From Blastococcus sp. (GTDB lineage Bacteria > Actinomycetota > Actinomycetes > Mycobacteriales > Geodermatophilaceae), in assembly GCA_025465355.1 (NCBI GenBank), contig JAODNN010000123.1:1-63344 (forward strand): a DNA stretch of 63,344 nt, given 5' to 3'. A program made the translations under genes and the position numbers. The notes beneath the pieces are model-generated. The model was given only the letters and a program-made list of their open reading frames with translations, ran no database searches and was not told where the DNA came from. This document shows, piece by piece, positions 5,730-48,415 of the stretch. Positions within the stretch are counted from its first letter, which is position 1, and each line of letters begins with the position of its first letter.

Positions 5730-7805
5730 GTGAGCCCCGAGGTCGACGCGGTCAGCCGGCACGTCGTCACCGTGCTCACGGTGCTCGAACGGCTCGACGC
5801 GGCGCTGTCCGCGGCCGTGGACGGCCGGGAGCCTTCCGCGAGGACTGCTCCCCGACCGCTGCTCTCCCCGGACGAGCATCCCGCCGACTCCCGGTTCCGT
5901 CATCTCGCGGACGCCTACCGGCTGTCCCCGGTCGAGCTGGACCTGCTCCTTCTCGCCATGGCACCCCAGCTCGACGTCCGGTACGGGGAGCTTTTCGGCT
6001 GCCTGCAGGGGGACCCCGCTCGGCATCGCCCCACCGTCTCCGTGGCACTCGGCCTGCTGGGCCTGACCCCGGCCCAGCGGGTGGTGGCCAGGCAGGTGCT
6101 GACGCCGACGTCGCGGCTGGTGGCCCCCGGACTGGTGCGGCTGCACGACCCCTCCGGGCAGCCCGGGAGCCCCTTGCCCGACCGTGAGCTGTCGGTCGAC
6201 GACCGACTGGTCGCCTATGTCACCGGCCACGACGGCATGGACGCCGCACTGTCCGAGGTGGCCGACGTCGTACGGATCGCCCCGACCGGACCCGGGATCG
6301 ACCGGCTCGTGGTCGCCGACGAGGTCCGTGCGCAGCTTGCGTCTCTCCAGCGCCGGCCGCAGCGGCTCTGTCTGCTGCGGGGGCCCGAGGGGTCCGGCCG
6401 CCAGGGCGCCGCCGAGGTCCTGGCGCAGGCCTGGGGCGTCACGGCCCTGCTGCGTGTGCAGACCGATCGGCTGCCCTTCGAGGACCCGGCGCGGTTCGCC
6501 GCCCTGGTGCAGGCGGTGAGCCGGGAGGCCCGGTTGCAGCGAGCGGCCCCCTTCTGGGAGCGGTTCGACGTGCTCCTGGAGGAGCCACGCGAGCCCCTGC
6601 GGGACCTGGTGCAGGCAGCGCTGTCGAGCGAGCCGCACGCATTCGTCAGCGCGTCGGGGGACTGGCCGGCGCGGAACGGTCCGGCCCTGGCCGAGGTGGT
6701 GCTGACGTCAGGCACGACAGGTCAGCGCGCCGAGCTGTGGCGGCGCCGACTCGACGCCTCCGCCCCGGACGGTGCGACGGCCGGGGGCCCGGCTGCGGAG
6801 GACCTCGCGGCGCTCGCGGCAGCGTTCCGGCTCGGTCCGAGGGCGATCGGCGCCGCGGTCGCCGAGGCGCGGAACTCGGGGGCCGCGGTCACCGCAGCGG
6901 CTCTGGCGGCGGCCGCCCGCCGTCAGGGCTCCGCGGCACTGGCCGGCGAAGGACGGCGGGTCGAGCAGCCCTACGGCTGGAACGATCTCGTGCTGCCGCC
7001 GGACCGGCTGCAGCGGTTGCACGCGCTGGGCGACCGGATCCGCTTCCGGGCCACGGTGTACGACCTGTGGGGTTTCGCGGCGACGGTCGGCCCGGCACGC
7101 GGCACGGCCGCCCTCTTCACCGGTCCGTCCGGCACCGGCAAGACCATGGCCGCGGGCATCCTCGCCGGCTCGCTCGGCCTCGACCTGTACCGGGTCGACC
7201 TGGCCGGCGTCGTCAGCAAGTACATCGGGGAGACCGAGAAGGCCCTCGCCCGCATCTTCGCCGCTGCCGAGGCGACGAGCGCGGTGCTCTTCTTCGACGA
7301 GGCCGACGCGCTGTTCGGCAAGCGCACCGAGGTGCGCGACGCCCACGACCGCTACGCCAACGTCGAGGTCTCCTACCTGCTGCAGCGGCTCGAGGAACAC
7401 GACGGCGTCGTCGTCCTGGCCACCAACCTGCGCAAGAACATCGACGAGGCCTTCCTGCGCCGGCTGCAGTTCGTCGTCGAGTTCCCCCTTCCCGACCGTG
7501 ACCACCGCCGGCTGATCTGGCAGCGGATGTTCCCCGCCGCGGCTCCGCTGGACCCCGCGTTGGACCTGGACCTGCTGGCCGAACGCTTCGAGCTGTCCGG
7601 CGGCAGCATCCGGAACGTCGCGGTGGAGGCGGCATTCGCCGCCGCCGTGTCCGGTCGTCCGATCGGCCCGGACCACGTGTCGACGGCCCTGCGGCACGAG
7701 CACCAGAAGCTCGGCCGGGTGCCCGCCGAGCACCTGTGGGCGGGGTCCGGTGACGGCCCCTCGTCCCCGAACGGCCACGTCCCTCTCGCAAGGAGTGCTC
7801 CATGA
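5730..7805 (+). CDS. AAA+ ATPase of contractile injection system (Pvc15/Afp15-like)
   Basis: Large cytosolic AAA+ ATPase, 691 aa from the chosen start. The C-terminal AAA domain has Walker A GPSGTGKT at about residue 465, Walker B VLFFDEADALFGKR at about 519, then the sensor stretch ATNLRKNIDEAFLRRLQF. An N-terminal half carries a degenerate P-loop (GPEGSGRQ, with arginine for lysine), as seen in ATPases of extracellular contractile injection systems, where they are thought to act in assembly or sheath handling. The GTG at 5730 was preferred over the frame's upstream GTG at 5505 because the intervening 75 codons lack the high-GC third-position bias; no strong ribosome-binding site decides it. 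It heads a run of overlapping genes, ending ATGA with the DUF4157 gene. The family is clear; the exact start is not. Confidence 0.9.
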   Translation: MSPEVDAVSRHVVTVLTVLERLDAALSAAVDGREPSARTAPRPLLSPDEHPADSRFRHLADAYRLSPVELDLLLLAMAPQLDVRYGELFGCLQGDPARHRPTVSVALGLLGLTPAQRVVARQVLTPTSRLVAPGLVRLHDPSGQPGSPLPDRELSVDDRLVAYVTGHDGMDAALSEVADVVRIAPTGPGIDRLVVADEVRAQLASLQRRPQRLCLLRGPEGSGRQGAAEVLAQAWGVTALLRVQTDRLPFEDPARFAALVQAVSREARLQRAAPFWERFDVLLEEPREPLRDLVQAALSSEPHAFVSASGDWPARNGPALAEVVLTSGTTGQRAELWRRRLDASAPDGATAGGPAAEDLAALAAAFRLGPRAIGAAVAEARNSGAAVTAAALAAAARRQGSAALAGEGRRVEQPYGWNDLVLPPDRLQRLHALGDRIRFRATVYDLWGFAATVGPARGTAALFTGPSGTGKTMAAGILAGSLGLDLYRVDLAGVVSKYIGETEKALARIFAAAEATSAVLFFDEADALFGKRTEVRDAHDRYANVEVSYLLQRLEEHDGVVVLATNLRKNIDEAFLRRLQFVVEFPLPDRDHRRLIWQRMFPAAAPLDPALDLDLLAERFELSGGSIRNVAVEAAFAAAVSGRPIGPDHVSTALRHEHQKLGRVPAEHLWAGSGDGPSSPNGHVPLARSAP

Positions 7806-8689
7806 CCACCATGCGACGTCCGCTGGCCCGTCAGGACCGGAGCGCCCCGACGGCAGCCGCTCCGGCGGGGGAGCGGGCCACCCGGACGGCATCCGCCGGC
7901 CGGCCGTTGCCCGGCGCGGTCAGGGCGCGGATGGAGACGGCGTTCGGGGCCGACTTCTCCGACGTGACGGTGCGGGAGGACGGCGCCACCGCTGCCCTCG
8001 ACGCGGTGGCGGTCACCCGCGGGAACCAGATCTCGTTCAGCCCGGGGATGTACGACGTGCACAGTCCTGAAGGGCTGGAGGTCATCGGGCACGAGTTGGC
8101 ACACGTGCTGCAGCAGCGGTCCGGGCGCGTCCACGGGTCCGGCGTCACCGAGGTTCCCGCGCTCGAGTCCGAAGCACACGAGGCGGGGCGGCAGGCAGCG
8201 CACGGCGCATCCGTGATGACGCGGGACGGGGAGGGCGCGTCCGGCGAGCAAGGGGCGGTCCCATCCACGACCGCACCGCAAGGCTCGGCCCCCGCCGGAG
8301 CGGTCGCCCAGCCGTCGCGCGTCGGGGACTTCTTCCGCCGGCTGTTCCGGCGAGGGAACGGCGCCCCTGCCGCGGCGCCCGGCCCTGTCGGCCCGGCACC
8401 CGCACCGGGTCCTGGTCCTGGTCCTGGTCCGGGTCCTGGTCCGGGTCCTGGTCCCGCCGTCGGAGCGGCGCCGCGCGCACGGCAGCGCAGCTTCTACGCG
8501 AACCAGGAGGACGTCATCTACGGCAACCTCGACGAGGTCCAACACATGCTCCGGCAGCAGGCCCAGCAGGCCCAGCCGCAAGCCCCGCGTCCCGCGTTGC
8601 CGCAGACCGGCGTACAGCCGGGGCAGGTCATCGATCGGAACGAGCTGCAGAGGGCATTCGAGCAGCGGGCCAGGAAGCGGATCCAGTGA
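7802..8689 (+). CDS. DUF4157 (HExxH metalloprotease-like) protein of injection system
   Basis: 295 aa. Residues about 37-120 form a DUF4157 domain (PLPGAVRARMETAFGADFSDV, a predicted zinc-binding HELAHVLQQ with H97, E98 and H101, then an ESEAHEAG segment). A basic patch (FFRRLFRRG) follows, then a proline/alanine linker with eight Gly-Pro dipeptides (residues 203-218), and a C-terminal glutamine-rich segment ending in charged helices. DUF4157 is a known companion of extracellular contractile injection systems and often forms the N-terminal part of candidate effectors. It may be cargo, or a leader or chaperone for cargo; the C-terminus resembles no toxin I know. The ATG overlaps the ATPase stop. 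Confidence 0.85.
   Translation: MTTMRRPLARQDRSAPTAAAPAGERATRTASAGRPLPGAVRARMETAFGADFSDVTVREDGATAALDAVAVTRGNQISFSPGMYDVHSPEGLEVIGHELAHVLQQRSGRVHGSGVTEVPALESEAHEAGRQAAHGASVMTRDGEGASGEQGAVPSTTAPQGSAPAGAVAQPSRVGDFFRRLFRRGNGAPAAAPGPVGPAPAPGPGPGPGPGPGPGPGPAVGAAPRARQRSFYANQEDVIYGNLDEVQHMLRQQAQQAQPQAPRPALPQTGVQPGQVIDRNELQRAFEQRARKRIQ
8408..8455 (+). repeat. Eight tandem hexamers GGTCCN encoding (Gly-Pro)8
   Basis: Eight consecutive in-frame copies of GGTCCT, GGTCCG or GGTCCC inside the DUF4157 gene. They encode a flexible Gly-Pro linker between the protease-like domain and the C-terminal segment. Such arrays change copy number by slippage, so linker length may vary between strains without breaking the frame. 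Confidence 0.9.
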
Positions 8690-8698
8690 CGGGGACCG

Positions 8699-9259
8699 GT
8701 GCTCGTGCTCGATGACCTGGACCGGACGTTGCGGGAACTGCTGCTGGGGCAGGTGCCCGACCTGGCTGCCGATCACCTCCACTTCGAACCGCCCGACACC
8801 GACTTCACCCCTGCAGTGCCGGCGGTCGACCTGTTCCTCTACGACGTGCGGGAGAACCGCCAGCTGCGCAGCAACGACTGGGAGCTCGACCGGCCGGGGA
8901 ACGGCTCGGTGACCAAGCGCCGCGCGCCGAGGCGGGTGGACTGCTCCTACCTGATCACCGCCTGGGCCGGCGATCCGTTGAGTGAGCACCTGCTGCTCGG
9001 CCGGGTGCTCCGCGCGCTGCTGCAGTCGCCCGTGATCGCCGGGGACACGCCACAGGGGGAGCTGGCCGGCCAGCAGCTGCCGACCAGCATCCTTCAGCCG
9101 ACCCTGCTGCAGGGCATCGGCGAGTTCTGGCAGGCGATGGGCAACAAGCCTCGCGCCGCCGTCCATCTCACGGTCACCGCCGCCGTCGACACCGCTACGC
9201 CCTCGACCGTCCCCGAGGTACGTGAACCGACGATCCGCATCGTCTCCAAGGAGCCCTGA
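8699..9259 (+). CDS. DUF4255 family tail terminator-like protein (Pvc16/Afp16-like)
   Basis: 186 aa (184 if translation starts at the GTG at 8705). It matches the DUF4255 family: an N-terminal helix LDDLDRTLRELLLGQ, then VDLFLYDVRENRQLRSNDW and CSYLITAWAGDPLSEHLLLGRVLRALL. In injection systems of the Afp/PVC type the equivalent protein (Afp16) is thought to cap and terminate the tube and sheath at their end distal to the baseplate, setting final length. It follows the DUF4157 gene by nine bases and ends two bases before the first sheath gene. Confidence 0.85.
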   Translation: MLVLDDLDRTLRELLLGQVPDLAADHLHFEPPDTDFTPAVPAVDLFLYDVRENRQLRSNDWELDRPGNGSVTKRRAPRRVDCSYLITAWAGDPLSEHLLLGRVLRALLQSPVIAGDTPQGELAGQQLPTSILQPTLLQGIGEFWQAMGNKPRAAVHLTVTAAVDTATPSTVPEVREPTIRIVSKEP

Positions 9260-9261
9260 CC

Positions 9262-10470
9262 ATGCCTCAATACTTCGCGCCCGGCGTCTACGTCGAGGAG
9301 GTCACCTCGGGGATCAAGCCCATCTCGGGCGTCGGCACCAGCACCGCCGGCTTCGTCGGAGCAGTGGCCGACGACGTGACGATGCCCCTCCGGCCGGGTC
9401 AGGTGGATGCGCACTACGCGGTGGCCCCGGAGCACGAGGCGCGCCTGACCACGAGCTGGGAGGCGTTCACCCAGGCCTTCGGCGACCTGCAGTTCGGCAA
9501 CCTCGTGCTCGCCCACGCGGTCTACGGGTTCTTCAACAACGGCGGCAGCCGGTGCTGGGTGACCCGCGTCGCGGCTCCGGCGCCGAGCGGCGACCACCCC
9601 GATGCGCCCGACGTCGACGCCGTGGCCACCTCGTCGGTGACGGCGGCCCTGGACACCTTCAAGGCCATCGACGAGATCGCCATCGTCGCGGTGCCCGGGG
9701 CGACCTCCGATGCCACGCAGAACGCGGTGCTCGACCACTGCGAGAACAAGCACCTCCAGGACCGCTTCGCGGTCCTCGACGGGCGTCGCACCACCGAGGC
9801 CACCCGCGACGCCGTCCAGGGCGGCACGCGGGACTCCAGCTACGGAGCGATCTACCACCCGTGGCTCCGGGTCTACGACCCCGTGTCCAACGGCTCGCTC
9901 ACCGTGCCCCCCAGCGGGCACGTCGCCGGCGTCTTCGCCCGGGTCGACACCGAACGCGGGGTGCACAAGGCCCCCGCCAACGAGGTGGTCCGTGGCGCCC
10001 TCGACGTGGCGACCGTGGTGAGCCGTGAGGACCAGGCGGGTCTCAACCCCGAGGACATCAACGTGATTCGCCGCTTCGGCGCCAACGTGACGATCTTCGG
10101 GGCGCGCACGCTGGGTGGAAAGGAGGACCCCGAGTGGCGCTACGTGAGCGTCCGGCGGCTCTTCCTCTTCCTGCGGGACTCGATCAACGCGGGAGTGCAG
10201 TGGACCGTGTTCGAGCCCAACGACGCGGCCCTGTGGGGCAAGCTGCGCCGCAACGTCGGCGCGTTCCTCACCAACGTCTGGCGGTCCGGGGCGCTGGTGG
10301 GAGCCACGCCTGCACAGGCGTTCTACGTCCGCTGCGACGAGACGCTGAACCCTCCGGAGGTCCAGGCGCTCGGCCAGGTCGTCGTAGAGATCGGGGTCGC
10401 GGTGGTCCGACCGGCCGAGTTCGTGATCTTCCGCATCAGCCAGTGGGCCGGCCCCGCGGCGGCCGCATGA
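9262..10470 (+). CDS. Contractile sheath protein 1
   Basis: Phage tail sheath family protein, 402 aa. The N-terminus APGVYVEEVTSGIKPISGVG is the classic handshake strand of sheath proteins, and the C-terminus holds the conserved core (FEPNDAALWGKLRRNVGAFL, FYVRCDETLNPPEV, ending PAEFVIFRI). It should polymerise around the inner tube and contract to drive it out. AAGGAG eight bases upstream supports the ATG at 9262. The stop overlaps the ATG of a second, shorter sheath gene; both share the FYVRCD..NPPEV and FEPND blocks, which shows an old duplication. Confidence 0.95.
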   Translation: MPQYFAPGVYVEEVTSGIKPISGVGTSTAGFVGAVADDVTMPLRPGQVDAHYAVAPEHEARLTTSWEAFTQAFGDLQFGNLVLAHAVYGFFNNGGSRCWVTRVAAPAPSGDHPDAPDVDAVATSSVTAALDTFKAIDEIAIVAVPGATSDATQNAVLDHCENKHLQDRFAVLDGRRTTEATRDAVQGGTRDSSYGAIYHPWLRVYDPVSNGSLTVPPSGHVAGVFARVDTERGVHKAPANEVVRGALDVATVVSREDQAGLNPEDINVIRRFGANVTIFGARTLGGKEDPEWRYVSVRRLFLFLRDSINAGVQWTVFEPNDAALWGKLRRNVGAFLTNVWRSGALVGATPAQAFYVRCDETLNPPEVQALGQVVVEIGVAVVRPAEFVIFRISQWAGPAAAA

Positions 10471-11600
10471 GCGCCGTCCCGTTCCCCGCCCCCGCTGTCA
10501 TGCGACCGCTGCCCGGGATCTCCCGGGAGCTCGTCCTCCCGGAGCAGCGACCGGCCGAGCCGCCGACCGGCGTGTGCGCTCTGCTCGGCGTCGCCGGGCG
10601 CGGTCCCCTCTACACGGCCGTGCCGCTGCGGCGGGCCGACGAGTTCGCCGCCGTGTTCGGTCCCGCGCCGGAGGGCAGCCACCTCGCCGCGGCGGTCGAG
10701 GGATTCTTCAGCTGCGGCGGAGCATCCTGCTACGCCATCCGGGTGGAGCCGGCAGACCCCGACTGGCTGACACGAGGGCTGGCCGCGCTGGCGCCGTTGG
10801 CGGACGCGGACCTGGTCGCCGTCCCGGACCTCGCGGCGGCAACTCCCGGTCGCTGGCTCGAGCTGCAGAAGGAGCTACTCGACGATTGCGAACGCAGCGG
10901 CGCCCGGTTCGCCGTCCTGGACTCCCTCCCCGGGGCGAGCGCCGCGGACGTTCGTGCCCAGCGGGACGGCCTGCAGAGCCGCTTCGGCGCGCTGTACTTC
11001 CCCTGGGTGCGCCTCGCCGGCGGGCAGGTCGTGCCGCCCAGTGGCCACGTGGCCGGGGCCTACGCGGCCAGTGACGCCGCCCGGGGAGTGGGCGCGGCCC
11101 CTGCCAACCTGGAACTGGCCGGGGTCTTCGACCTCGTGCCCGCGCCGACGCCGGCGGAGCTGGCCGACCTGAGCGCCGCCGCGGTGAACCCGTTGCGCAG
11201 CCTGCCCGGGCGGGGCATCCGCGTCTGGGGTGCTCGCACGCTGGCCGGCCCCGACCAGCCGGAGTGGACGGCGATCGGGGTCTGCCGGCTCTTCCTCTCC
11301 CTGGCCCGCTGGCTGGCCGCGACCGCCCCCGCCCTCGCCTTCGAGCCGAACGACCTCACGTTGTGGATCCGGATCCGCCGTCAGCTGACCGAGCGCCTCT
11401 GGCGGCTGTGGCGCGAGGGCAGCCTGGCCGGCGCCGCCCCCGACAGTGCGTTCTACGTGCGGTGTGACGCCGGGACCAATCCGCCCGAGGTGCGCGATGC
11501 GGGTCTCGTCGTCACCGAGATAGGGCTGGCGCCGAGCGTGCCGGCCGAGTTCGTCGTCGTCCGGCTCGTCCAGCAGGACGGGCGCACCACCTTCGCCTGA
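10467..11600 (+). CDS. Contractile sheath protein 2
   Basis: Second sheath paralogue, 377 aa. It shares with its neighbour the VPPSGHVAGAYAASDAARGV stretch, WGARTLAGPDQPEW, FEPNDLTLWIRIRRQL and FYVRCDAGTNPPEVRDAGLVVTEIG. Its N-terminus differs: instead of the canonical APGVYVEE strand it begins MSAVPFPAPAVMRPLPGISRE. In Afp/PVC particles the main sheath (Afp2) is accompanied by minor sheath proteins at the baseplate or end layers, and this copy may play such a specialised part. Translationally coupled through ATGA. Confidence 0.93.
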   Translation: MSAVPFPAPAVMRPLPGISRELVLPEQRPAEPPTGVCALLGVAGRGPLYTAVPLRRADEFAAVFGPAPEGSHLAAAVEGFFSCGGASCYAIRVEPADPDWLTRGLAALAPLADADLVAVPDLAAATPGRWLELQKELLDDCERSGARFAVLDSLPGASAADVRAQRDGLQSRFGALYFPWVRLAGGQVVPPSGHVAGAYAASDAARGVGAAPANLELAGVFDLVPAPTPAELADLSAAAVNPLRSLPGRGIRVWGARTLAGPDQPEWTAIGVCRLFLSLARWLAATAPALAFEPNDLTLWIRIRRQLTERLWRLWREGSLAGAAPDSAFYVRCDAGTNPPEVRDAGLVVTEIGLAPSVPAEFVVVRLVQQDGRTTFA

Positions 11601-11647
11601 ACAGACCCGCTGACCCACCCGGGCAGCCGAACAGGGAGGCCGACACC

Positions 11648-12085
11648 GTGGCCGCTGGAGATCGCACCGATCCGTACCGCTCCTACAACTTCCTGGTCGA
11701 GATCGACGGGATCACCCGCGCGGGTTTCCGGGACTGCTCGGGCCTGGACTCCAGCTCACCGGCCATCGAGTACCGGGAGGGCAACGACCGGCAACTGTCC
11801 ACTCGCAAGATCCCGGGCCTGGTGAGCTTTCCGAACATCAGCCTGAGCCGCGGTATCACCGACGATCCCGAGCTGTGGGAGTGGCGGCTGCAGGCGGCTC
11901 AGGGCACCGTGTCCCGGCGCAACGGGTCGATCGTGCTGCTCGACGACGCCGGCGAGGAGAAACTGCGCTGGAACTTCCGCGAGGGCTGGCCGACCCAGTG
12001 GAGCGGTCCGACGTTCGACGCCACCGGGAGCGACGTGGCGATCGAGGTCCTCGAGATCGCCCACGAGGGGCTGACCCGTGGCTGA
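11648..12085 (+). CDS. Inner tube protein 1 (gp19-like)
   Basis: 145 aa protein of the T4 gp19-like tail tube family (Afp1/Afp5-like). Typical features: DPYRSYNFLVEIDGITRAGF at the N-terminus, the CSGLDSSSPAIEYREGND loop, LSRGITDDPELWEWRL, and a C-terminal ending FDATGSDVAIEVLEIAHEGL. Stacked hexamers of this protein form the rigid needle inside the sheath. It starts at a GTG preceded by AGGGAGG, 47 bases after the second sheath gene. Confidence 0.93.
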   Translation: MAAGDRTDPYRSYNFLVEIDGITRAGFRDCSGLDSSSPAIEYREGNDRQLSTRKIPGLVSFPNISLSRGITDDPELWEWRLQAAQGTVSRRNGSIVLLDDAGEEKLRWNFREGWPTQWSGPTFDATGSDVAIEVLEIAHEGLTRG

Positions 12086-12491
12086 CGGTGCTCCGGCGGC
12101 GCCGTTCCCCGGGACGCCGGGCATCGAGGCGCCGTCCACCGAGACGGCCTTCACGCTGCCGCTGGGGTACCGCGATCCCGACGGCGTCCTGCACGGCGAG
12201 GGCACGATGCGGCTGGCCACCGCCTTCGACGAGATCGCCCCGCTGAAGGACCCGCGCGTGCAGGCCAATCCCGGCTATCTGGTGGTCATCCTGCTGTCCC
12301 GGGTGATCACCCGCCTGGGGACGCTCCCGGATCTCACGCCGCGCATCGTCGAGGGGTTCTTCGCCGCCGACCTGGCATACCTCCAGGACCTCTACAACCG
12401 GCTCAACGACCCCGGCGGGGGACGCCTGCTCGTGGCCTGCCCGCACTGCAGTGGCGAGTTCGAGGTGGACACGGGGAGCCCGGGGGAATGA
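12078..12491 (+). CDS. Putative tail assembly (chaperone-like) protein of injection system
   Basis: 137 aa, lying between the two tube genes as is common in contractile injection loci. Central helical segment (GTMRLATAFDEIAPLKDPRVQ and VVILLSRVITRLGTLPDL) and a C-terminal CPHC pair followed by an acidic tail (EFEVDTGSPGE), resembling half of a zinc ribbon. Small genes at this position in phage tails are usually assembly factors rather than structural parts. The function is inferred from position and overall similarity to tail-assembly proteins in such loci; it overlaps its neighbours at both ends. Confidence 0.65.
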   Translation: MADGAPAAPFPGTPGIEAPSTETAFTLPLGYRDPDGVLHGEGTMRLATAFDEIAPLKDPRVQANPGYLVVILLSRVITRLGTLPDLTPRIVEGFFAADLAYLQDLYNRLNDPGGGRLLVACPHCSGEFEVDTGSPGE

Positions 12492-12676
12492 GGCGCTACC
12501 CCTCGCAGCGGCTCCGGGAGGAGGTGGCGTACGTGGCTCATCACCTGCACTGGTCCTACCGGGAGCTGATGGGCATGGAGCACGGCGAACGTCTGGTGTG
12601 GGTGGCCCAGGCCGCGCGACTGGCCGGACCGGACGGGGCGCCGCACGCGGCTCCGGACGACGGTCGGTGGCGGTGA
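12488..12676 (+). CDS. Small GpE/DUF6760-like tail protein
   Basis: 62 aa, helical, with YPSQRLREEVAYVAHHLHWSY followed by ELMGMEHGERLVWVAQAARL. Small proteins of this look (W-Y-x-x-L-M-x-M-x-x-x-E) follow the assembly-chaperone gene in phage-tail and injection loci, like the second chaperone product in lambda-type tails. ATGA overlap with the preceding gene supports that it is real despite its size. The role in assembly is inference. Confidence 0.65.
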   Translation: MRRYPSQRLREEVAYVAHHLHWSYRELMGMEHGERLVWVAQAARLAGPDGAPHAAPDDGRWR

Positions 12677-12683
12677 GCGGCGG

Positions 12684-13166
12684 ATGACGGCTCCGGGCGC
12701 ACGACGCGATCCCTACGCGGGGCTGCGGTTCCGCATCCAGCTCGAGGGACTGGAGGTCGGCGGCTTCAGCGAGGTCAGCGGCCTCGAGGCGGTCGTGGAG
12801 ACGACGACCTACCGGGAAGGCGGCGAGAACTCCTTCGAGCACAAGCTCGCCGGGCCCGTCGCATATCCCCGCAACGTGACGCTGCGCCGCGGCCTCACCG
12901 ACAGCGCCGACTTCTGGGACTGGCTGGATCAGGTCGGCCTGGGGCTGGTGATCCGCCGGAACCTCACGATCATGCTGCTGGGCGTCGACGGCGAGCCGGC
13001 GCTGCTGTGGGACTGCCGCGGGGCCTTCCCGGTCCGCTGGAGCGGGCCCGAGCTGAACGCGACGTCCCCTGTCGTGGCCTTCGAGACCCTCGAGCTGGCG
13101 CATCACGGCATCACCCGCGCCCGCGGCCGAAGCCTCATCGCCTCGGTCACGCGGAGGGTCCTGTGA
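12684..13166 (+). CDS. Inner tube protein 2 (gp19-like)
   Basis: Second tube-family protein, 160 aa. The layout matches the first: DPYAGLRFRIQLEGLEVGGFSEVSGLE, TTYREGGENSFEHKLAGP, VTLRRGLTDSADFWDWL, RWSGPELNATSPVVAFETLELAHHGI. It carries about 15 extra C-terminal residues. In Afp/PVC systems one tube paralogue forms the shaft and another forms the initiating layer on the hub; this copy, nearest the baseplate genes, may be the adaptor. The ATG at 12684 follows the small DUF6760-like gene by seven bases. The stop overlaps the next gene's GTG. Confidence 0.92.
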   Translation: MTAPGARRDPYAGLRFRIQLEGLEVGGFSEVSGLEAVVETTTYREGGENSFEHKLAGPVAYPRNVTLRRGLTDSADFWDWLDQVGLGLVIRRNLTIMLLGVDGEPALLWDCRGAFPVRWSGPELNATSPVVAFETLELAHHGITRARGRSLIASVTRRVL

Positions 13167-16735: not shown

Positions 16736-16775
16736 CAGCAGTCAGCCGACCGACACGAGAACCGGAGGCATCCCG

Positions 16776-17156
16776 ATGGGCCAGCCCGCCGCCGCGCAGG
16801 GTGACCTGGTGACCGCAAACGACACGCATCTGGTGGTCATCTCTCAGGTCCCGACAACCGTCGTGCTGCCGTTCGCCGGCCCGCTCACCGACGGCCTGAG
16901 CCCGAATGTGCGCATCGGGGGCCGGGCCGCCGCGGTCGTCGGCAGCGGGGCGCACAACCAGCCTCCGCACATCGCGCCCGGGGGAGCCTTCAGCCGGCCG
17001 CCCACCAACGTGGCCACGGTGCAATCGGGCAGCACCACCGTACGGATCAGCGGGAGGTTCGCGGCCAGGGCAGGGGACCCGGCGCTCACCTGCAACGACC
17101 CGGTGGACGTGCCGGCCGGCACGGTCGGTGCCCTCGGCCCCGTGCGGATCGGCTGA
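16776..17156 (+). CDS. PAAR-like spike-tip protein
   Basis: 126 aa protein with the layout of PAAR-like tips of contractile systems: short N-terminus GQPAAAQGDLVTANDTHLVV, glycine-rich beta turns (IGGRAAAVVGSGAHNQPPHI), and the conserved AARAGDPALTCNDPVDVPAG near the end. Histidines and a cysteine are placed as in metal-binding tips. It should cap the spike and sharpen the puncturing point. It has its own start 40 bases after the spike stop, with a CGGAGG site before the ATG. Confidence 0.87.
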   Translation: MGQPAAAQGDLVTANDTHLVVISQVPTTVVLPFAGPLTDGLSPNVRIGGRAAAVVGSGAHNQPPHIAPGGAFSRPPTNVATVQSGSTTVRISGRFAARAGDPALTCNDPVDVPAGTVGALGPVRIG

Positions 17157-17157
17157 C

Positions 17158-17553
17158 ATGGCGGGAGAGTTCCTGGGCCGGGGATGGGCCTTCCCGATCG
17201 CAGTGGAGGAGCACGGCGCCATCGCCGGGGTCGCCCTCGAGGACGCCGTCCGCCAAGCGATCTGGGTGGTGCTGTCGACCGCACCCGGTGAGCGGGTCAT
17301 GCGCCCGACGTTCGGCGCCGGCCTCGCCGACCTGGTCTTCGCGCCGAACACCCCGGCCACCCACGGACTGGTGGCCAGCGCCGTCCGGGACGCCCTGGTG
17401 GAGTGGGAGCCGCGCATCGACGTCCTCGACGTGGCCGTCACCGCGGATCCGGGGCAGCCCACGCGACTTCTGGTGGAGGTGGACTACGCGGTCCGGGCGA
17501 CCAACAGCCGGTTCAACCTGGTGTATCCCTTCTATCTCCAGGAGCCGGCGTGA
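17158..17553 (+). CDS. GPW/gp25 family baseplate wedge protein
   Basis: 131 aa. Family signature is plain: FLGRGWAFPI near the N-terminus, DAVRQAIWVVLSTAPGERVMRP-FGAGL, and VEVDYAVRATNSRFNLVYPFYL at the C-terminus. gp25-like proteins sit at the inner baseplate, where they nucleate the sheath, equivalent to Pvc9/Afp9. It starts one base after the PAAR gene stop and overlaps the next gene by GTGA. Confidence 0.95.
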   Translation: MAGEFLGRGWAFPIAVEEHGAIAGVALEDAVRQAIWVVLSTAPGERVMRPTFGAGLADLVFAPNTPATHGLVASAVRDALVEWEPRIDVLDVAVTADPGQPTRLLVEVDYAVRATNSRFNLVYPFYLQEPA

Positions 17554-20500
17554 CCCGGCCCGCGCCTCCGGTCGACCCGCGGGGGTACTCCGACCTGGTT
17601 GCCGACACCACGCGGCTGGCACAACTGCTCTCGCCGTGGCGTCCACCCGAGGGCGGCACGGACCTCGGCGGTGCGCTGGTCGCGCTCTTCGCCGGCATGG
17701 CCGACCAGGTGCTGCAACGGCTCAATGCCGTCCCGGAGCGGGACTTCCTCGCCTTCCTGGAGCTCCTCGGGGTGGAGCCTCTGCCGCCCCGGGCAGCGCA
17801 GGTGCCGCTGACCTTCAGCCCGCCGGCCGGTAGCGCCACCCCCGGGTTGGTGCCCGCCGGGACCCCCGTCGCAGCCCCGGGACAGCCGCCGGTCCGGTTT
17901 TTCACCGAGCGCGACCTGGTGGTCAGCCCCGCCGTCCTGACCGCGGCCGTGGTGCTGGACCCGGTGGCCGACCGTCGCGCCGACGTCACGGCCGCGGCGA
18001 CCGGCGCATCCGACGAGGCGTGGCCTGCGTTCGCCGGCAACTCCCTCATCCCGCACGCGCTGTACGTCGCCCACGACGAGTTCGCCGTCCTGCCGCGCCC
18101 GCGCATTCTCGGCGTGACCGTCACGTTCGCCGACGCCGCGGGCCGGGACGCTTTCGCGGTGCCCAACGTGGAGTGGGCGCGTTGGGACGGGGCGGCCTGG
18201 CAGCCGCTGCCGCAGCCGCCGCCCGGAGGCTCGCCGGTCGGTGACACCGGCTGGGCGGTTTCCCTCGGCGACATCGGCGTGCCCGAACCGGTCCCGGTGG
18301 CCGGCCGCACCGCCCGCTGGTTGCGCGCCCGGCTGACGAAGGCCCTCGGCACGGTCCCCGGGGTGGACCGGGCCGTCGTCCACGGCGTGACGGTGACGGC
18401 GGACGTCACCGACGTGGCGCGGGTCGCTCCCACGGCCGGTTTCACCGGCGCGGTGCCGGTGGACCTGGCCGGGGACGCCTTCCCGTTCGGTGAGCAGCCC
18501 CGGTTCACCGACACGTTCACGCTCGGCAGCGACGTCTTCGGCCGCGCCGGCGCCGAGGCGACCCTGGACGTGACGATCAGCAGTGGCCTGCCCGTACCGC
18601 CGACGCCGTCCGACGATCTGGTCCTCGTGTGGGAGGTGGGTGGATCCGACGGCTGGGTGCCGGTGGGCCGCTCCGGTCCCGGTGTGGCTCCTCCGCGCGG
18701 CGCCGGATTCGCCGACGGCACGTCGGCGCTGACCACCAGCGGCACGCTCCGGTTCACCGTTCCGCCGACCGGCGGTCCCGTCGTCCTCAACGGCGTGAGC
18801 GGATGGTGGCTGCGGGCGAGGATCGCCGCGGGGAACTACGGCCACGGCGCGAGCTACCAGCCGGCCGCGGACCCCAGCAGGCCTCCTGTCCTCGTCCCGG
18901 CCACGTATGCCCCTCCGGCCGTGTCGGGGCTGCTGGTCAGCTGGCGGTTCCATGGCGAGGAGCCCAGCGGGGCCCTGGCCACGGTCGACGGCGACGACGC
19001 GGAGGACCGCACCGGCCTGACCGCGCCGTTCCCGGCATTCCATGCCGTCCCGGCGGACCGCCCGGCTCTGCACCTCGGGTTCGACCGGCCGTTCCCGAAC
19101 CGGCCGGTGCTGCTGCACGTGCAGGTCGACGCCGCAGCCGATCCCGACGGCGGGGCAGCCGCTCCGGTTCCGCTGGTCTGGGAGTACGCCGCTGCGGCCG
19201 GCTGGGCGGATCTGGGCGCGGTCGACGAGACTCGCGGGCTGAGCCGCTCGGGACCGGTGGGTTTCATCGGCCCGGCGGACCTGGTGCCGACGCCGATGTT
19301 CGGCCGCACCCTCTGCTGGCTCCGCGTGCGTCCGGCGGTCCCCGGGCCGGTGCCCTCCCCGCGGCTGCGCCGGATCCTGCTCAACACCGTGCCGGCGACC
19401 GCCGCCGTGCCGGCCGCGGACGAGGTCCTCGGCGTCAGCGACGGGTCACCCGGCCAGCGCTTCCGGACGACGCGTACGCCGGTGCTGAACGGGGAGCGGG
19501 TGGACGTGCTGACGGCGGGGGAGTGGCGGACCTGGGAACGGACCCCGGACCTCGCCGGCTCCGGCCCGCTCGACCGGCACTACGTGCTGGACCGGGAGCA
19601 CGGCGAGGTGCTCTTCGGCGACGGGCGTCACGGCGCCGTACCGCCCACCGGGAGCCCGGTGCGGGCGACCTACCGTTCGGGCGGCGGCAGCGCGGGGAAC
19701 CAGCCCGCGGGCGCCGTGACCCAGCTGGAGGTCGCGCTCGCCGGGGTGGACCGGGTCGTCAACCATGAGCCGGCCGCGGGCGGTGCCGACACCGAGCCAC
19801 TGGAGCGGGTGCGTGTCCGGGGACCGGTCGCGCTGCGTCACGGCGGTCGCGCGGTGGCCGCCGAGGACTATCCCGACCTCGCCGTGGCCGCCTCGCCGGA
19901 CGTGGCGCGCGCCCTGGCCGTCCCCGTCCCGGTCAACCCCCTGGACGTGCCGTGGATCGTCCCGGTGCCCGTCGACCCCGGCGGGTCCGGTCCGGCGACG
20001 TCCGGTGTCCCGTCGCCCGTGGCCTCGGTGCTCTGCCGAGCACCGGCGGGGGACGTCGCCGGCCATCGGCCGCCGGCGGCCGGGCGGGTGGCCGTGGTCG
20101 TGGTGCCCGAGTCCGACGACCCCCGGCCGGCGCCCAGCCGGCAGCTGCTGGACGAGGTCGCGGACGCGCTGCGGCTGCGCAGTCCGGCAGTGCTGGGAGC
20201 GGCGGGCCTGACGGTGACCGGTCCGGAATGGATCGAGCTGACGGTGCGGGTCACCGTGGCGGCGACCGACCTGGCCGCGGCGGGGTCGTTGCCCGGTGCG
20301 GTCACCACGGCGCTGGACCGCTACCTGCACCCCCTCCACGGTGGGCCGGAGGGCACCGGCTGGGTCTTCGGCCGGGCGCCGCACCGTTCGGATCTGCTCG
20401 CCCTCCTGATCGGCCTCCCGGGGATCGACCACGTGGTCGCCCTCGACATGCAGGAGAGCCCGTCCCGCGCCGGGCTCGACCGCGAGCAGCTGGCCCGGAC

Positions 20501-20558
20501 GCTTGTCTGGTCGGGGCGGCACGCGGTGGCCGTCGTTCCCTCGGGGCAGACGCCATGA
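17550..20558 (+). CDS. Large baseplate assembly protein (gpJ/Pvc11-like)
   Basis: 1002 aa, the largest component. Similar to 'putative baseplate assembly protein' of injection systems: N-terminal wedge region (LVADTTRLAQLLSPWRPPE, VALFAGMADQVLQRLNAVPERDFLAFLELLG), repeated beta domains with LVWEYAAAAGWADLGAV-like blocks, then the conserved VLDREHGEVLFGDGRHGAVPPTGSPVRATY and a gpJ-like C-terminus (RVRGPVALRHGGRAVAAEDYPDLA, EWIELTVRVTVAA, LDRYLHPLHGGPEGTGWVFGR). It should form the baseplate wedge with the next protein. Its GTG overlaps the gp25 stop. Confidence 0.92.
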   Translation: MTRPAPPVDPRGYSDLVADTTRLAQLLSPWRPPEGGTDLGGALVALFAGMADQVLQRLNAVPERDFLAFLELLGVEPLPPRAAQVPLTFSPPAGSATPGLVPAGTPVAAPGQPPVRFFTERDLVVSPAVLTAAVVLDPVADRRADVTAAATGASDEAWPAFAGNSLIPHALYVAHDEFAVLPRPRILGVTVTFADAAGRDAFAVPNVEWARWDGAAWQPLPQPPPGGSPVGDTGWAVSLGDIGVPEPVPVAGRTARWLRARLTKALGTVPGVDRAVVHGVTVTADVTDVARVAPTAGFTGAVPVDLAGDAFPFGEQPRFTDTFTLGSDVFGRAGAEATLDVTISSGLPVPPTPSDDLVLVWEVGGSDGWVPVGRSGPGVAPPRGAGFADGTSALTTSGTLRFTVPPTGGPVVLNGVSGWWLRARIAAGNYGHGASYQPAADPSRPPVLVPATYAPPAVSGLLVSWRFHGEEPSGALATVDGDDAEDRTGLTAPFPAFHAVPADRPALHLGFDRPFPNRPVLLHVQVDAAADPDGGAAAPVPLVWEYAAAAGWADLGAVDETRGLSRSGPVGFIGPADLVPTPMFGRTLCWLRVRPAVPGPVPSPRLRRILLNTVPATAAVPAADEVLGVSDGSPGQRFRTTRTPVLNGERVDVLTAGEWRTWERTPDLAGSGPLDRHYVLDREHGEVLFGDGRHGAVPPTGSPVRATYRSGGGSAGNQPAGAVTQLEVALAGVDRVVNHEPAAGGADTEPLERVRVRGPVALRHGGRAVAAEDYPDLAVAASPDVARALAVPVPVNPLDVPWIVPVPVDPGGSGPATSGVPSPVASVLCRAPAGDVAGHRPPAAGRVAVVVVPESDDPRPAPSRQLLDEVADALRLRSPAVLGAAGLTVTGPEWIELTVRVTVAATDLAAAGSLPGAVTTALDRYLHPLHGGPEGTGWVFGRAPHRSDLLALLIGLPGIDHVVALDMQESPSRAGLDREQLARTLVWSGRHAVAVVPSGQTP

Positions 20559-21568
20559 CCCGCCTCCGGCCGGTCCTCGACGACGTCACCTACGCCGACC
20601 TGGTCGCGCAGGCCCGGCGCACGATCCCGGCGCTCGCGCCCGACTGGACGGACCACAACCCCGGCGACCCCGGGATCACGCTCGTCGAGCTGTTCGCCTG
20701 GCTGGCCGAGATGCTCGTCTACCAGGCCGACCAGTTGCCGCCCGACCGCACCGATGCGTTTCTCACGCTGCTCAACGGGCCGGGCTGGGCCCGCACCACC
20801 GACCTCGACACAGCGGTGCGCGACACCCTTGCGACGCTGCGCGGTCCGTGGCGGGCGGTCACGGCGGACGACGTCGTCCGCCTGCTGACCGAGGTGTGGC
20901 CGGCAGACGACGCGTCGCGGCCGCCGTTGCGACGCGCGCACTGCGTGCCCGAGCGGGACCTCGCGACGGCACCGGCCGGGGACGTGGCGGCACCGGGACA
21001 CCTGAGCATCGTCATCGTCCCGGAGCCGGCACCGGACGGCGCAGACCTGCCGGTCGCGTCACCGGAACTGTGCGCGGCGGTGCTCGAGTGGTTGGAGCCG
21101 CGCCGGCTGCTCGGCGTCCGGCACCACGTGGTCCCCCCGGTCTACGTGCCGGTCACGTCGACCGCCCGCCTCGTGATCCGCGAGGACTACGCCCCGGCGA
21201 CCGTCGCCCGTAGCGGGGTGCTGACCGACGAGGCCATCGCGGACGAGGTGGGCCGGCAGGGGGCGGCCGCGCTCGCCGCGTACCTGCACCCGGTCACCGG
21301 CGGGGCCGACGGGACGGGCTGGCCCTTCGGGCGGGACGTGCACGCCTCGGAGATCTACGCCGTCCTGGACCGGCTGCCCGGGGTGGACTTCGTCGACGGG
21401 CTGCGCTTCGTCGACCCGGCGCCCGACCGGCAGATCATCGCCGGCGGTGACCTCGTGGGCGTGCGGCTGGCGCCGCACGAACTGGTCGACCTCACCGTCG
21501 TCGACGACCGTGGCCGCCAGGGGCAGCTCTCGGTGACGTGGTCCCGGCTGGCCGGGGGCGCGACGTGA
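20555..21568 (+). CDS. Second baseplate wedge protein (Pvc12-like)
   Basis: 337 aa, related to the C-terminal part of the preceding protein: [29 protein letters not shown] at the N-terminus (typical of baseplate J-family), a [12 protein letters not shown] segment, and [28 protein letters not shown], which matches the LHPLHGGPEGTGWVFGR block of its neighbour. Two such proteins normally heterodimerise into baseplate wedges (T4 gp6-like). Translationally coupled by ATGA on the left and GTGA on the right. Confidence 0.9.
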   Translation: [337 protein letters not shown]

Positions 21569-22239
21569 GCGCACCGGCCGGCGGACCGCTTCCCGGGGCA
21601 CCTGCTCCGGGCAGCAGCTACCTCGAGGCGCTGCCGGCCGTCTACCGGGAGGCCGACGAGGTCGGCGACCGGTTCCTCGGCCGGTTCCTGCTGGCCTTCG
21701 AGCACGTGCTGCACGGCCTGGGCGACGCCGATGTCGCCGGTTTCCCGCGCGGGCTGGGCGAGCAACTGAGCGACGCGGGGCGGTATCTGGACCCGTCCCG
21801 GACACCGCACGAGTTCCTCGACTGGCTCGCCGGCTGGGTCGCCCTGAGCCTGGCGGAGGACTGGACGGAGGACGAGCAGCGCCGCTTCCTCGCCCGGGCC
21901 GTCCCGCTGTACCGGCTGCGCGGCACCGCGCGCGGCCTGACCGAGCTGCTGCGGGCCTACACCGGCGACCTGCCGGTCACCGTCTACGAGTTCGACAACG
22001 TGCCGCACTACTTCCAGGTGGAGCTCACCCTGGGGCTCAGCCTGCGCGACCCCGACTTCGAGGCCCGCAAGCAGCGTCGCCAGCGCACCGCGATGGCGAT
22101 CATCGACCAGCAGAAGCCGGCGCACACCTTCTACTCGTTCCGCTTCCGCGACGTGCCGACCATGCAGATCCGTGTCCACTCGACCGTCGGTGTCGACGCG
22201 GTGCTCGGCTCCGTCGCCGACCCAGGAAAGGCCGGATGA
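21565..22239 (+). CDS. gpI-like tail protein
   Basis: 224 aa of the P2 gpI-like / 'phage tail protein domain' family: SSYLEALPAVYREADEVGDRFLGRFLLAFE near the start, then DLDPSRTP-like (YLDPSRTPHEFLDWLAGWVALSL), and the hallmark RRFLARAVPLYRLRGTARGLTELLRAYTG. It joins the baseplate wedge to fibres in P2-type tails. The gene overlaps both neighbours (GTGA, ATGA). Confidence 0.9.
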   Translation: MSAPAGGPLPGAPAPGSSYLEALPAVYREADEVGDRFLGRFLLAFEHVLHGLGDADVAGFPRGLGEQLSDAGRYLDPSRTPHEFLDWLAGWVALSLAEDWTEDEQRRFLARAVPLYRLRGTARGLTELLRAYTGDLPVTVYEFDNVPHYFQVELTLGLSLRDPDFEARKQRRQRTAMAIIDQQKPAHTFYSFRFRDVPTMQIRVHSTVGVDAVLGSVADPGKAG

Positions 22240-23621
22240 TCCCCATGGCCGACTACACCGAGCCCGACTACGTCGACCGGCGGCTGCGCTACTTCGACGG
22301 GCAGTTCCTGCGGGAGCAGGACTTCATCGACGAGCAGCGCTACCACGTCGACCGCGAGCGGCGGCTGGCGCGCGTGGCACACACGCCGGGCATCGTGGAA
22401 GGCCTGGCGGTCACCGCCGTCCCGAACGCGCCCAAGGTCACCATCGCCCCAGGCACGGCGATCGACGGGCTCGGCAGGCTTCTCGTGCGGGGAGACGCGG
22501 GCGAGCCGCTGGACCTCACCGAGCTGGTCAACAGCGACAGCGACGTCGTGGTCATCGTCGGACTGACCTACAACCGGGAGGAGGCCGGTGCTCCGCAGGG
22601 CGGGGCGAGCCCCCGGTGGAGGGAGAACCCGCGGATCGTCCGATGGCTCGAAGGCTCGGCCGACGCGCCGCCCGAGGACATGACCGTCCGGCTGGCCCGG
22701 GTCACCCTGCTGCACCCCGATGGGACGGCCGGCGTGGATCCCGGGTGGGCGCCGGCGGTGAGCGGACTCGGCGTGCGCGGGCCGCTCAGCGTCGCGGGGT
22801 TGGCCTCGTTCCCCGGCGGTGTCGCCGGTGCCCGAGGGGCCAGCGGGGCAGAGCCGGCACCGCTGAGCGTGCGCAGCCGGCTCCAGGTCACCGGACCGCC
22901 CGCGTTCGACAGCACCACGCGCGTCGATCTGGTCAACGGGTCCAACGACTTCGGGCGTACCAATCTCGTCCTCACCGGCCGGTACCAGGACGGCAACGAC
23001 GGGTGGGTCTTCGGCAGCGGCGCACGGAACTCGATCGTCTTCGCGCGGAACACCGCCGCGAGCGGGCAGGCGGTCGGCGCGATCGGCGATGAGCAGGTGT
23101 CGCTGCAGCTGGACGGCGGGTCCCGGCGCCTCGGCGTCCTCACCCGGGCGCGCGGCAACGATCCGGCGGTGACCATCGCCCAGGAGGGCACGGTCCACCT
23201 GGGCAGTGCCGATCGGCGGGCCAACCTGGATGTGGAGGGGGAGGTCGACGTCTCCCTGGATCTCACCGTCCTGGGGGGCCTCGCCTCCGCTGAGGTCGGC
23301 CAGTGGAGCACCATCGTGTTCTCGGCCGCCCAGACTGTCCAGATCACGATCGGCCCCAGATCCCCGCACAACGTCATCGTCGTGCGCCGACGGGGCGGCA
23401 TCATCCTCAGTGCCTCGGTCATCGTGCCCTCGGGCACGGAAGGCGAGTGGATCGGCCAGTACACCTTCTTCGATCCGGTGAACCAGACCCTCGGGGTCAT
23501 GGCCCCCCTCTTCCAGGGCACTCCGATGTCGGCCAATGCCCAGCGGGCCTCCCTGCCGCCGGGGTCGAGCCCCGTCGTGCTCTATCTCGAGGTCCACCAC
23601 GTCACGACCCTGGAGGGCTGA
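22236..23621 (+). CDS. Putative tail-fibre / receptor-binding protein
   Basis: 461 aa (458 if started at the second ATG, 22245). The N-terminal ~100 residues match a domain found on baseplate-attached proteins of contractile systems (RRLRYFDGQFLREQDFIDEQ, RHVDRERR-like segment, GIVEGLAVTAVPNAPKVTIAPGTAIDGLG). The remainder is beta-rich and without recognised motif: a variable Gly/Ala middle and a C-terminal region (IIVPSGTEGEW-like) that could be a receptor-binding tip. Position after gpI is where fibre genes sit. The attachment role is reasonably inferred; receptor binding is a guess. Confidence 0.7.
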   Translation: MIPMADYTEPDYVDRRLRYFDGQFLREQDFIDEQRYHVDRERRLARVAHTPGIVEGLAVTAVPNAPKVTIAPGTAIDGLGRLLVRGDAGEPLDLTELVNSDSDVVVIVGLTYNREEAGAPQGGASPRWRENPRIVRWLEGSADAPPEDMTVRLARVTLLHPDGTAGVDPGWAPAVSGLGVRGPLSVAGLASFPGGVAGARGASGAEPAPLSVRSRLQVTGPPAFDSTTRVDLVNGSNDFGRTNLVLTGRYQDGNDGWVFGSGARNSIVFARNTAASGQAVGAIGDEQVSLQLDGGSRRLGVLTRARGNDPAVTIAQEGTVHLGSADRRANLDVEGEVDVSLDLTVLGGLASAEVGQWSTIVFSAAQTVQITIGPRSPHNVIVVRRRGGIILSASVIVPSGTEGEWIGQYTFFDPVNQTLGVMAPLFQGTPMSANAQRASLPPGSSPVVLYLEVHHVTTLEG

Positions 23622-23623
23622 CG

Positions 23624-23821
23624 ATGGATCTCCGTGCGCAGCTGGAACAGCGGCTGGTGGTGCTCCACGAGGAGCTCGCGGCCGGGCGCCGGCTCCTTGT
23701 CGAGCTGCAGGCGCGCCAGGCCGAGGTCCAGGACACCCTGCTGAGGATCACCGGCGCCATCCAGGTGCTCGAGGAGGAGCTGGCCGCCAGCCCCTGCGTC
23801 GAGCCGACGACCCCCGGCTGA
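23624..23821 (+). CDS. Small coiled-coil protein closing the injection-system operon
   Basis: 65 aa. Almost the whole protein is one predicted coiled coil (LRAQLEQRLVVLHEELAAG, LLVELQARQAEVQDTLLRITGAIQVLEEELAA) with leucines in heptad spacing. It follows the fibre gene by two bases and its stop is 18 bases from the convergent ribonuclease D stop. Not recognised; the small size and heptads suggest an oligomeric structural or chaperone part. High third-position GC argues for a genuine gene. Confidence 0.65.
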   Translation: MDLRAQLEQRLVVLHEELAAGRRLLVELQARQAEVQDTLLRITGAIQVLEEELAASPCVEPTTPG

Positions 23822-46385: not shown

Positions 46386-46437
46386 CCCGCCCATCGTGTC
46401 AACCGCGCTCCGGGGGCTGTCCCTAGCATCGGCGGAC

Positions 46438-48410: not shown

Positions 48411-48415
48411 GCCTG

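Follow-up and report, generated by a model that had tools for sequence, protein, structure and literature searches.

In the contractile injection particles Afp and PVC, the hub and the spike form a single protein (Afp8 and Pvc8), and the CISSc system possesses one sheath gene and a fused Cis8. The three-domain Alg8 is described as superposing on Afp8/Pvc8 (PMC8894135), and Alg6/Cis6 of AlgoCIS and the Anabaena tCIS is reported as a trimer solved in the tube-facing cavity of the spike, with Alg6 having a C-terminal helix and being needed for assembly (PMC8894135, PMC8894136). For injection systems of Bacteroidales, an arrangement was published in 2020 in which sheath and tube are each present twice and gp27, spike, and tip have a gene each (PMC7394362). 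In Streptomyces davawensis, the gene of the tape-measure-related effector Tme is described as close to that of the tube initiator and as immediately preceding the baseplate genes (PMC11126660). Here, we describe a locus at positions 5730-23821 of a 63,344-nucleotide stretch of Blastococcus sp. DNA (contig JAODNN010000123.1, hereafter the window), which very probably specifies a complete contractile injection particle of phage-tail origin, belonging to the extracellular contractile injection system (eCIS) family and to the type with a TssK-like fiber anchor. An unannotated gene between the tube initiator and the LysM adaptor (13163..14263) has a product, hereafter the slot protein, that may serve the syringe barrel as plug and inner tether in one.

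The cluster comprises 20 frames on the forward strand, all of them open and each with a stop codon at its end only, and 18 match known families or domains in Pfam, NCBIfam, or PHROGs, some below curated cut-offs; the roughly twenty contractile-machine genes of the preliminary description were thus borne out. That description also had most of the genes joined by 4-base overlaps, and such overlaps are indeed present, but they account for only 10 of the 19 junctions, the others being one 8-base overlap and eight gaps of 1-47 bases. A sheath, a gp19-type tube, gp25, a J-type baseplate protein, hub and spike, PAAR, and a LysM/CIS_tube protein lie within this single cluster, as expected of an eCIS, together with a Pvc16_N cap, an eCIS_core/DUF4157 protein, and an AAA+ ATPase that all exceed Pfam cut-offs. 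By its predicted genes, the system is an intact-looking eCIS and an ordinary member of a known family, and the set as a whole is not unusual. Loci from other phyla have the genes from DUF4255 through CIS13 in the same order.

The predicted parts start with the AAA+ ATPase of Cis15/Afp15 type (5730..7805; PF00004, E = 4e-27; PF22977 WHD, E = 6.3e-29), whose start codon is the gene caller's choice and could truly lie upstream. It is followed by the DUF4157/eCIS_core protein (7802..8689; PF13699, E = 1.8e-24), a candidate cargo or cargo adaptor that contains an HELAH motif and has a C-terminal part rich in Pro and Gly, where a run of Gly-Pro repeats precedes an end without family match, and by a tail terminator, the DUF4255/Pvc16-type cap (8699..9259; PF14065, E = 2e-31). 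Besides the sheaths, tubes, LysM adaptor, hub, and spike treated below, the cluster is predicted to encode a PAAR tip (16776..17156; PF05488, E = 1.6e-10) and a baseplate composed of a gp25-type wedge (Cis9; 17158..17553; PF04965, E = 5.6e-27), a 1002-aa TIGR02243/Baseplate_J protein (Cis11 type; 17550..20558; TIGR02243, E = 2.5e-85), a second TIGR02243-type protein of 337 aa (20555..21568; E = 1.8e-40, below cut-off), and a Tail_P2_I adaptor. Two small genes separate the tubes: c1 (12078..12491, 137 aa) is tail-assembly-chaperone-like (phrog_508, E = 1.1e-6; no Pfam family over cut-off), and c2 (12488..12676, 62 aa) is a DUF6760 protein (PF20546, E = 1.2e-6, over cut-off) with a weak likeness to P2 gpE (Phage_P2_GpE, E = 0.031, below cut-off).

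To place these genes among their relatives, gene-order strings were built for 107 loci, of which one proved a duplicate, leaving 106 for comparison. A PAAR profile had yielded at least 136 relatives in named genomes, the best 80 of which were kept, and a hub search of 98 genomes gave a match in 21, the window's own included; the sample is biased, because most loci were retrieved by their similarity to the PAAR or hub protein and because many contigs end within the locus. A sheath was in view in 65 of the 106 loci, with ten carrying tandem sheaths as the window does, eight an alternating sheath-tube-sheath order, and the rest one sheath. All ten tandem-sheath loci have a split hub and spike and a c1 or c2 match, whereas among the eight alternating loci seven are split, one could not be scored, and none has c1 or c2.

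The slot gene lies between tube 2 and the LysM adaptor with a 4-base overlap on each side, and at E = 0.1 its product has no match among the families of Pfam, NCBIfam, or PHROGs. The 366-aa protein consists of N-terminal helices, a middle of about 264 aa rich in Pro, Ala, Arg, and Gly, and a conserved C-terminal helix; Pro, Ala, Arg, Gly, Ser, and Thr together make up 78% of residues 67-330. An AlphaFold2 model with 12 relatives placed the helix at 331-352 near pLDDT 90 and helices within 19-65 at about 55-85, with low confidence between them and a mean pLDDT of 53.7. By Afp-based numbering, this is the place of Afp6, Pvc6, Alg6, and Cis6. The published Alg6/Cis6 proteins of AlgoCIS and the Anabaena tCIS likewise lie between initiator (5) and LysM adaptor (7) and have a C-terminal helix; Alg6 differs in being called small (PMC8894135), and a sequence match between these plugs and the slot tails was not found.

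A long frame in this neighborhood accompanied c1 in every locus in which the initiator and the LysM gene were also in view. Fifty-five loci have a c1 or c2 match together with a LysM match, and the tube initiator is also in view in 52 of them, near copies included; c1 is found in all 52 and c2 in 47. Every one of the 52 has a frame of at least 250 codons beside the initiator, 44 after it and eight before it, with no locus having such a frame on both sides or on neither. The long frames measure about 340 to 1600 codons in total. Most of their products share a C-terminal motif of roughly LAxxVYxxLxRRLxIExxRRG. In leave-out models, from which near copies were excluded, all 44 "after" tails had at most two of 9311 background tails scoring at or above them, and 22 had none. 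The background had been cleaned of 72 slot-position frames, among them those of loci L027, L038, L040, L042, L045, and L080, which do not clearly carry the motif; when the slot-position frames of cut-off loci were left in, none of the 44 "after" tails ranked first. Six of the eight "before" tails had at most three background tails at or above them. We rely on this test with the cleaned background, since the first motif model, with 52 tails picked by an Arg/Glu-rich-end pattern and 19 loci left out by hand, was not unbiased. Of the tail alignments, one (A9) held 38 hand-chosen tails and another (A11) seven of the eight "before" tails, L034 being left out. When profiles were compared, the "after" tails scored 90.4 against the "before" tails and 69.9 against the short slot proteins of the alternating loci, whose own status as plugs is by position only; among the controls, 60 column shuffles for each comparison never exceeded 1.9, and 13 other sets of tails never exceeded 0.2.

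The background frames that scored at or above "after" tails were two, both small and situated between c1 and the initiator; one belongs to L101 (Thermogemmatispora), the other to L138 (from an unclassified bacterium), and both look like copies of the motif themselves. Small motif-bearing frames between the chaperone-like gene and the initiator were seen at L138:4011-4349, L101:4777-5115, and L156:4415-4993, the last also with an HELAH stretch, and more weakly in L121, L137, and L104. Some loci may, by this motif, hold two plug-like proteins.

On balance, the slot protein is somewhat more likely than not the spike plug of the Cis6 slot, with its C-terminal helix in the hub cavity and its disordered part extending up the tube. 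A plug with a long lumenal tether is the simplest account of the protein, and roles as cargo, ruler, and plug are all possible, perhaps in one chain. More tentatively, spike plug, tape measure, and cargo tether might be one gene in a large cross-phylum group, with a constant hub-seating C-terminal helix of about 25 residues and a variable tube-filling part that would bear the DUF4157 cargo domain in some loci. Several observations weigh against these assignments. The assignment to Cis6 draws on where the gene lies, on a helix, and on a profile score that is moderate. Among solved structures, the slot tail profile matched neither Alg6 nor the Cis6 of Anabaena, and below E = 0.001 it hit just three chains named D_3_633, presumably designed proteins. 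The window's tail is the weakest of the 44 (22.9 bits, with two background tails at or above it). For the "before" tails of L033 and L034 (the latter frame apparently broken), 19 and 752 background tails scored at or above, the first motif model listed none of the eight "before" frames, and the "before" tails scored only 0.3 against the short slot proteins, which gives no support. In L038, L040, and L042, which lack c1 and c2, the slot frames of 293-546 codons have no such end motif by eye. Finally, no tape-measure family was matched by the window's protein or three relatives in PHROGs, so that tape-measure homology by that library was rejected.

The position of the slot protein is nonetheless that of a tape measure or of Tme, a long protein near tail-assembly-chaperone-like genes and upstream of the hub genes in 52 of 52 loci, although the window's protein has neither a PHROGs or Pfam family nor DUF4157. 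The S. davawensis system has a similarly long, mostly disordered protein near initiator and baseplate genes, in a group spread over phyla, where the order of Tme before the initiator is read from locus tags (PMC11126660). Its likeness also lends weight to another explanation, that the slot protein is solely cargo or an effector to be injected, its C-terminal helix serving as a tag for loading and the particle assembling without it: Tme, just upstream of the baseplate genes, is described as about 70% disordered and as carrying DUF4157 (PMC11126660), and some slot proteins contain eCIS_core (L101 and L116, the only Pfam family found in ten further slot proteins scanned) or an HExxH motif (nine loci). 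We consider this explanation fairly unlikely. Tme carries DUF4157 and a nuclease domain (PMC11126660), whereas in the window DUF4157 is in a separate gene, and the slot protein has no recognizable enzymatic domain. A long frame in 52 of 52 c1 loci is also, we infer, more constant than cargo usually is. Two further scans of eight proteins each, short slot proteins and "before" forms among them, gave no match reaching a curated cut-off; the "before" protein of L029 reached 43 bits with a model of an IgA-binding protein, for which the cut-off is 1700, and this likeness was taken as low complexity. A search of the open-access literature found no description of the shared C-terminal helix.

The particle may be envisaged as working along the lines of its published relatives. 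Contact through the CIS13 fiber would open the baseplate, and sheath 1 would then contract and drive the tube, spike, and PAAR tip into the target membrane, while sheath 2 would form the adaptor ring or rings at the baseplate. The DUF4157 protein would be cargo or would link cargo to the tube initiator, and the ATPase would help loading; in Streptomyces lividans, a potential interaction between a DUF4157 protein and the tube initiator is reported (PMC13277306). With the C-terminal helix of the slot protein in the hub cavity, its long disordered part could extend through the tube and there set its length, be cargo, or tether cargo, and c1 and c2 would handle the protein during assembly.

The fiber-like CIS13 protein (22245..23621; NF053767, E = 1.3e-13, below cut-off) has a TssK-like N-terminal domain and a variable C-terminal part. 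The AlphaFold2 model was confident for about residues 51-170, apart from a dip at 111-130, and poor elsewhere, so that the C-terminal part has no usable structure model. In Foldseek, all 15 PDB matches of the N-terminus with E ≤ 0.001 came from type VI secretion system (T6SS) entries, either TssK or TssK-containing baseplates (best E, 3.6e-6), followed by the baseplates of phage phi812 and the Anabaena CIS. Against this assignment, the TM-scores are about 0.2 over the whole model, and 314 of the 458 residues are below pLDDT 50. The counterparts in the tandem loci range from 458 (window) to 1345 residues, with one cut-off copy left out, a spread as one would expect of a receptor-binding protein. 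With a profile built from ten relatives, matches were obtained to a phage long tail fiber subunit (E = 2e-6), a myelin regulatory factor chain (E = 4.3e-5), and, more weakly, adhesin-like fibers, but the matching columns may be absent from the shorter protein of the window. The gene preceding CIS13 encodes the Tail_P2_I/TIGR02242 baseplate adaptor (Cis12 type; 21565..22239; PF09684, E = 6.1e-14; TIGR02242, E = 4.7e-26). A TssK-like anchor combined with a Tail_P2_I adaptor is the pairing described for eBAP3 fibers, which are reported to be spread over Bacillota and Actinobacteriota and common in both (PMC12923769); the likeness of the anchor domain is by fold, not by the published profile.

Alternatively, the system could act in a CISSc-like cytoplasmic mode, kept within the cell, contracting under stress, and acting on its producer. 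The shared phylum and a cluster without a lysis gene would suit this mode, as would the best solved match of sheath 1, 8bky_A (E = 1.4e-101), which we take to be CISSc. We nevertheless regard it as unlikely. The window has two sheaths and a split hub and spike, in contrast to the CISSc arrangement, and thereby departs from type IId. It also has the fiber-like CIS13, whereas CISSc clusters are described as having no conventional tail fiber gene and no typical tape measure (PMC10066040, PMC12237407). The fiber-like gene would speak for an outward target of the predicted particle.

The preliminary description took the duplication of sheath and tube as a departure from Afp and PVC, but those systems themselves have three sheath and two tube proteins, and we rejected the duplication as a distinguishing trait. 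PDB matches of the sheath included Afp2, Afp3, and Afp4 and Pvc2, Pvc3, and Pvc4, and those of the tube Afp1 and Afp5 and Pvc1 and Pvc5; sheath paralogues and a trunk tube with an initiator are thus shared with Afp/PVC, as are cap, ATPase, and gp25 by family name. Afp/PVC differ in a third sheath protein, in another fiber type (PMC12923769), and, for Afp, in a separate tape measure, Afp14 (PMC10066040). Sheath 1 (9262..10470; PF04984, E = 3.9e-22; PF17482, E = 7.7e-17) is the predicted main contractile sheath, and sheath 2 (10467..11600; PF04984, E = 3.3e-14) a probable baseplate-proximal adaptor ring. In a sheath tree of 74 of 82 rows, the first and second tandem sheaths each formed one group (tandem_a, 99/91; tandem_b, 96/99), which led us to reject a recent duplication. 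The tandem_b clade consists of the ten second sheaths, from Actinomycetota, Myxococcota, Chloroflexota, Cyanobacteriota, and Pseudomonadota; as judged from this tree, sheath 2 is a member of an old paralogue clade present in five phyla. Relative to the sheath 1 profile, the sheath 2 profile gained 53-71 bits on Afp4 (177 vs 124), Pvc4 (184 vs 127), and 9qgl_4A (202 vs 131), 9-45 bits on the "2" chains (Pvc2, 222 vs 205), and 18-25 bits on the "3" chains, and lost 71 bits on 8bky (383 vs 454); in our reading, the 9qgl chain letters follow Afp numbering. Since the largest gains are on Afp4, Pvc4, and 9qgl_4A, these profiles make sheath 2 most likely the baseplate-proximal adaptor, against which stands the fact that in absolute bits it is still nearer Pvc2 (222) than Pvc4 (184). 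By the same reasoning, tube 2 (12684..13166; PF06841, E = 2.2e-36), with 79.8 bits on Pvc5 and 79.0 on Pvc1, would be the Cis5-type initiator, and tube 1 (11648..12085; PF06841, E = 2.3e-41), with 46.7 and 88.8 bits, the Cis1-type trunk tube.

The separation of hub and spike stood up to comparison. Downstream of the Cis7-type CIS_tube + LysM adaptor (14260..14907; PF19266, E = 1.7e-27; PF01476, E = 2.8e-7), the hub, the gp27/GPD part of VgrG (14904..16082; E = 2.6e-47, below the model cut-off; PF05954, E = 1.3e-4, below cut-off), and the spike, the gp5/Phage_base_V part (16079..16735; PF04717, E = 4.6e-28), match positions 6-348 and 370-544 of VgrG_rel (NF033848); because these are successive stretches of one fused-protein model, we take the split to be real. 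Hub and spike are split in 63 of the 106 loci, form one frame in 34, and could not be scored in nine. In a tree of 89 hubs, 58 from split and 31 from fused loci, the split label required four changes against a shuffled mean of 25.7; rows shorter than 230 residues and eight that were duplicates or near copies had been left out. The window's hub falls within a clade of 17 rows, all split (SH-aLRT 99 in a quick tree), and a recent split in this genome was rejected on that ground. A split in 58 of the 89 compared loci and tandem sheaths in 10 of 65 across five phyla lend no support to an unusual gene set among known systems, and a similar set was published for Bacteroidales in 2020 (PMC7394362). 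Architecture 1 of those systems is described as having two sheaths, two tubes, separate gp27, spike, and tip genes, and a hypothetical gene between Tube2 and LysM (PMC7394362); it belongs to another phylum and is likened here by description, not by sequence.

The window is one whole contig of a genome assembled in 195 contigs and has 41 gene calls outside the cluster, which sits between a thiolase gene and a ribonuclease D gene. Nine of the ten flanking genes are housekeeping genes, and one had no match at E = 1e-20 (NCBIfam). Neither these ten flanking genes (NCBIfam) nor 27 of the 41 outside genes (PHROGs) include capsid, terminase, integrase, or lysis genes, some of the 27 matching PHROGs families of unknown function; together the scans covered 34 of the 41, seven at 46366-52435 and 58988-62632 being in neither. 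No lysis gene was found within the cluster by Pfam and NCBIfam scans. The earlier view of an injection system and not a prophage is upheld by these scans, which found none of the capsid or integrase genes just outside the operon that it had named as grounds for refutation. A decaying prophage tail or R-type tailocin, which a tail module without head genes and a gene order resembling P2-type tails might suggest, is scarcely credible and was rejected, since the cluster contains an AAA+ ATPase, a DUF4255 cap, and an eCIS_core protein, all 20 frames are open and ten of the genes are under purifying selection, and housekeeping genes flank both sides with no phage head, integrase, or lysis family in the 27 outside genes scanned. 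Nor does the locus look like a T6SS: in a search confined to the 20 genes of the cluster, none matched a family of the TssJLM membrane complex, ClpV, or the two-protein TssB/TssC sheath, and T6SS models for VgrG, PAAR, and TssE matched cluster genes only below cut-off. Within the genome (95% complete), the DUF4157 protein at 7802-8689 was the single eCIS_core match, and sheath and Baseplate_J matches were confined to this cluster; a second eCIS or a further cargo gene elsewhere in it was rejected.

Downstream of CIS13 lies coil65 (23624..23821), a small coiled-coil-like protein of 65 aa that was found in 20 loci by iterative search, the window included, and matched no Pfam, NCBIfam, or PHROGs family over cut-off. 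A promoter and terminator scan, which covers one promoter type, found nothing. Elsewhere in the window, the region of the fatty acid oxidation alpha-subunit (1973-4057, reverse strand) consists of two same-phase frames (2789-4057 and 1973-2782) with a stop between them; the alpha-subunit in the congener L179 is one 695-aa frame, and the break in the window is a nonsense change or an assembly error. A 474-aa gene at 56465-57889 has a weak HNH endonuclease match (PHROGs, E = 1.2e-4) and possibly belongs to a mobile element.

The ribonuclease D gene is present in all 16 Blastococcus genomes examined, the window's included. The nearest relative with the cluster is Blastococcus sp. RYN_128, whose hub is 93% identical and whose copy, on a 19,426-base contig, ends inside the slot gene. 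In the 14 other genomes, sheath 1, gp25, AAA, and CIS13 had no match within 8.4-11 kb around the ribonuclease D gene; 13 had no hub match anywhere, and the 14th had one, 34% identical and on another contig. Thiolase was in view near ribonuclease D in nine of the 14, at 187 to 5057 bases. By eye, the interval between the two genes differs among congeners (L178-L191) and has the look of a variable insertion site: some have transporter-like genes there, some other small operons, and some next to nothing. Between the window and RYN_128, dN/dS was 0.105-0.386 over the ten genes from LysM to coil65, with CIS13 highest, and 0.157 and 0.148 for two flanking genes; by these ratios the ten genes are under purifying selection. 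Synonymous divergence was 0.119-0.275 for nine of the ten eCIS genes (14260-23821) and 0.555 for coil65, as against 0.42 and 0.41 for the two flanking genes. Because the nine are diverged at about a third to two thirds of the flanking level, the cluster may have been exchanged recently within the genus; the pattern suggests gene flow within Blastococcus. No open-access paper combining "Blastococcus" and "contractile injection" was found.

These findings add an intact-looking Blastococcus locus to a known family, with odd features that are shared with other lineages; of its components, the slot protein is of the greater consequence. CISSc particles are reported to be of one length without a tape-measure gene (PMC12237407), and gut systems are described as seeming to lack Cis6 (PMC12210884). 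If the proposal of one gene for plug, tape measure, and tether is true, some systems scored in print as having no plug or no tape measure may have the long form instead. Wherever it is present, a disordered protein that docks in the hub by a shared helix would open both the control of length and the anchoring of cargo to testing.

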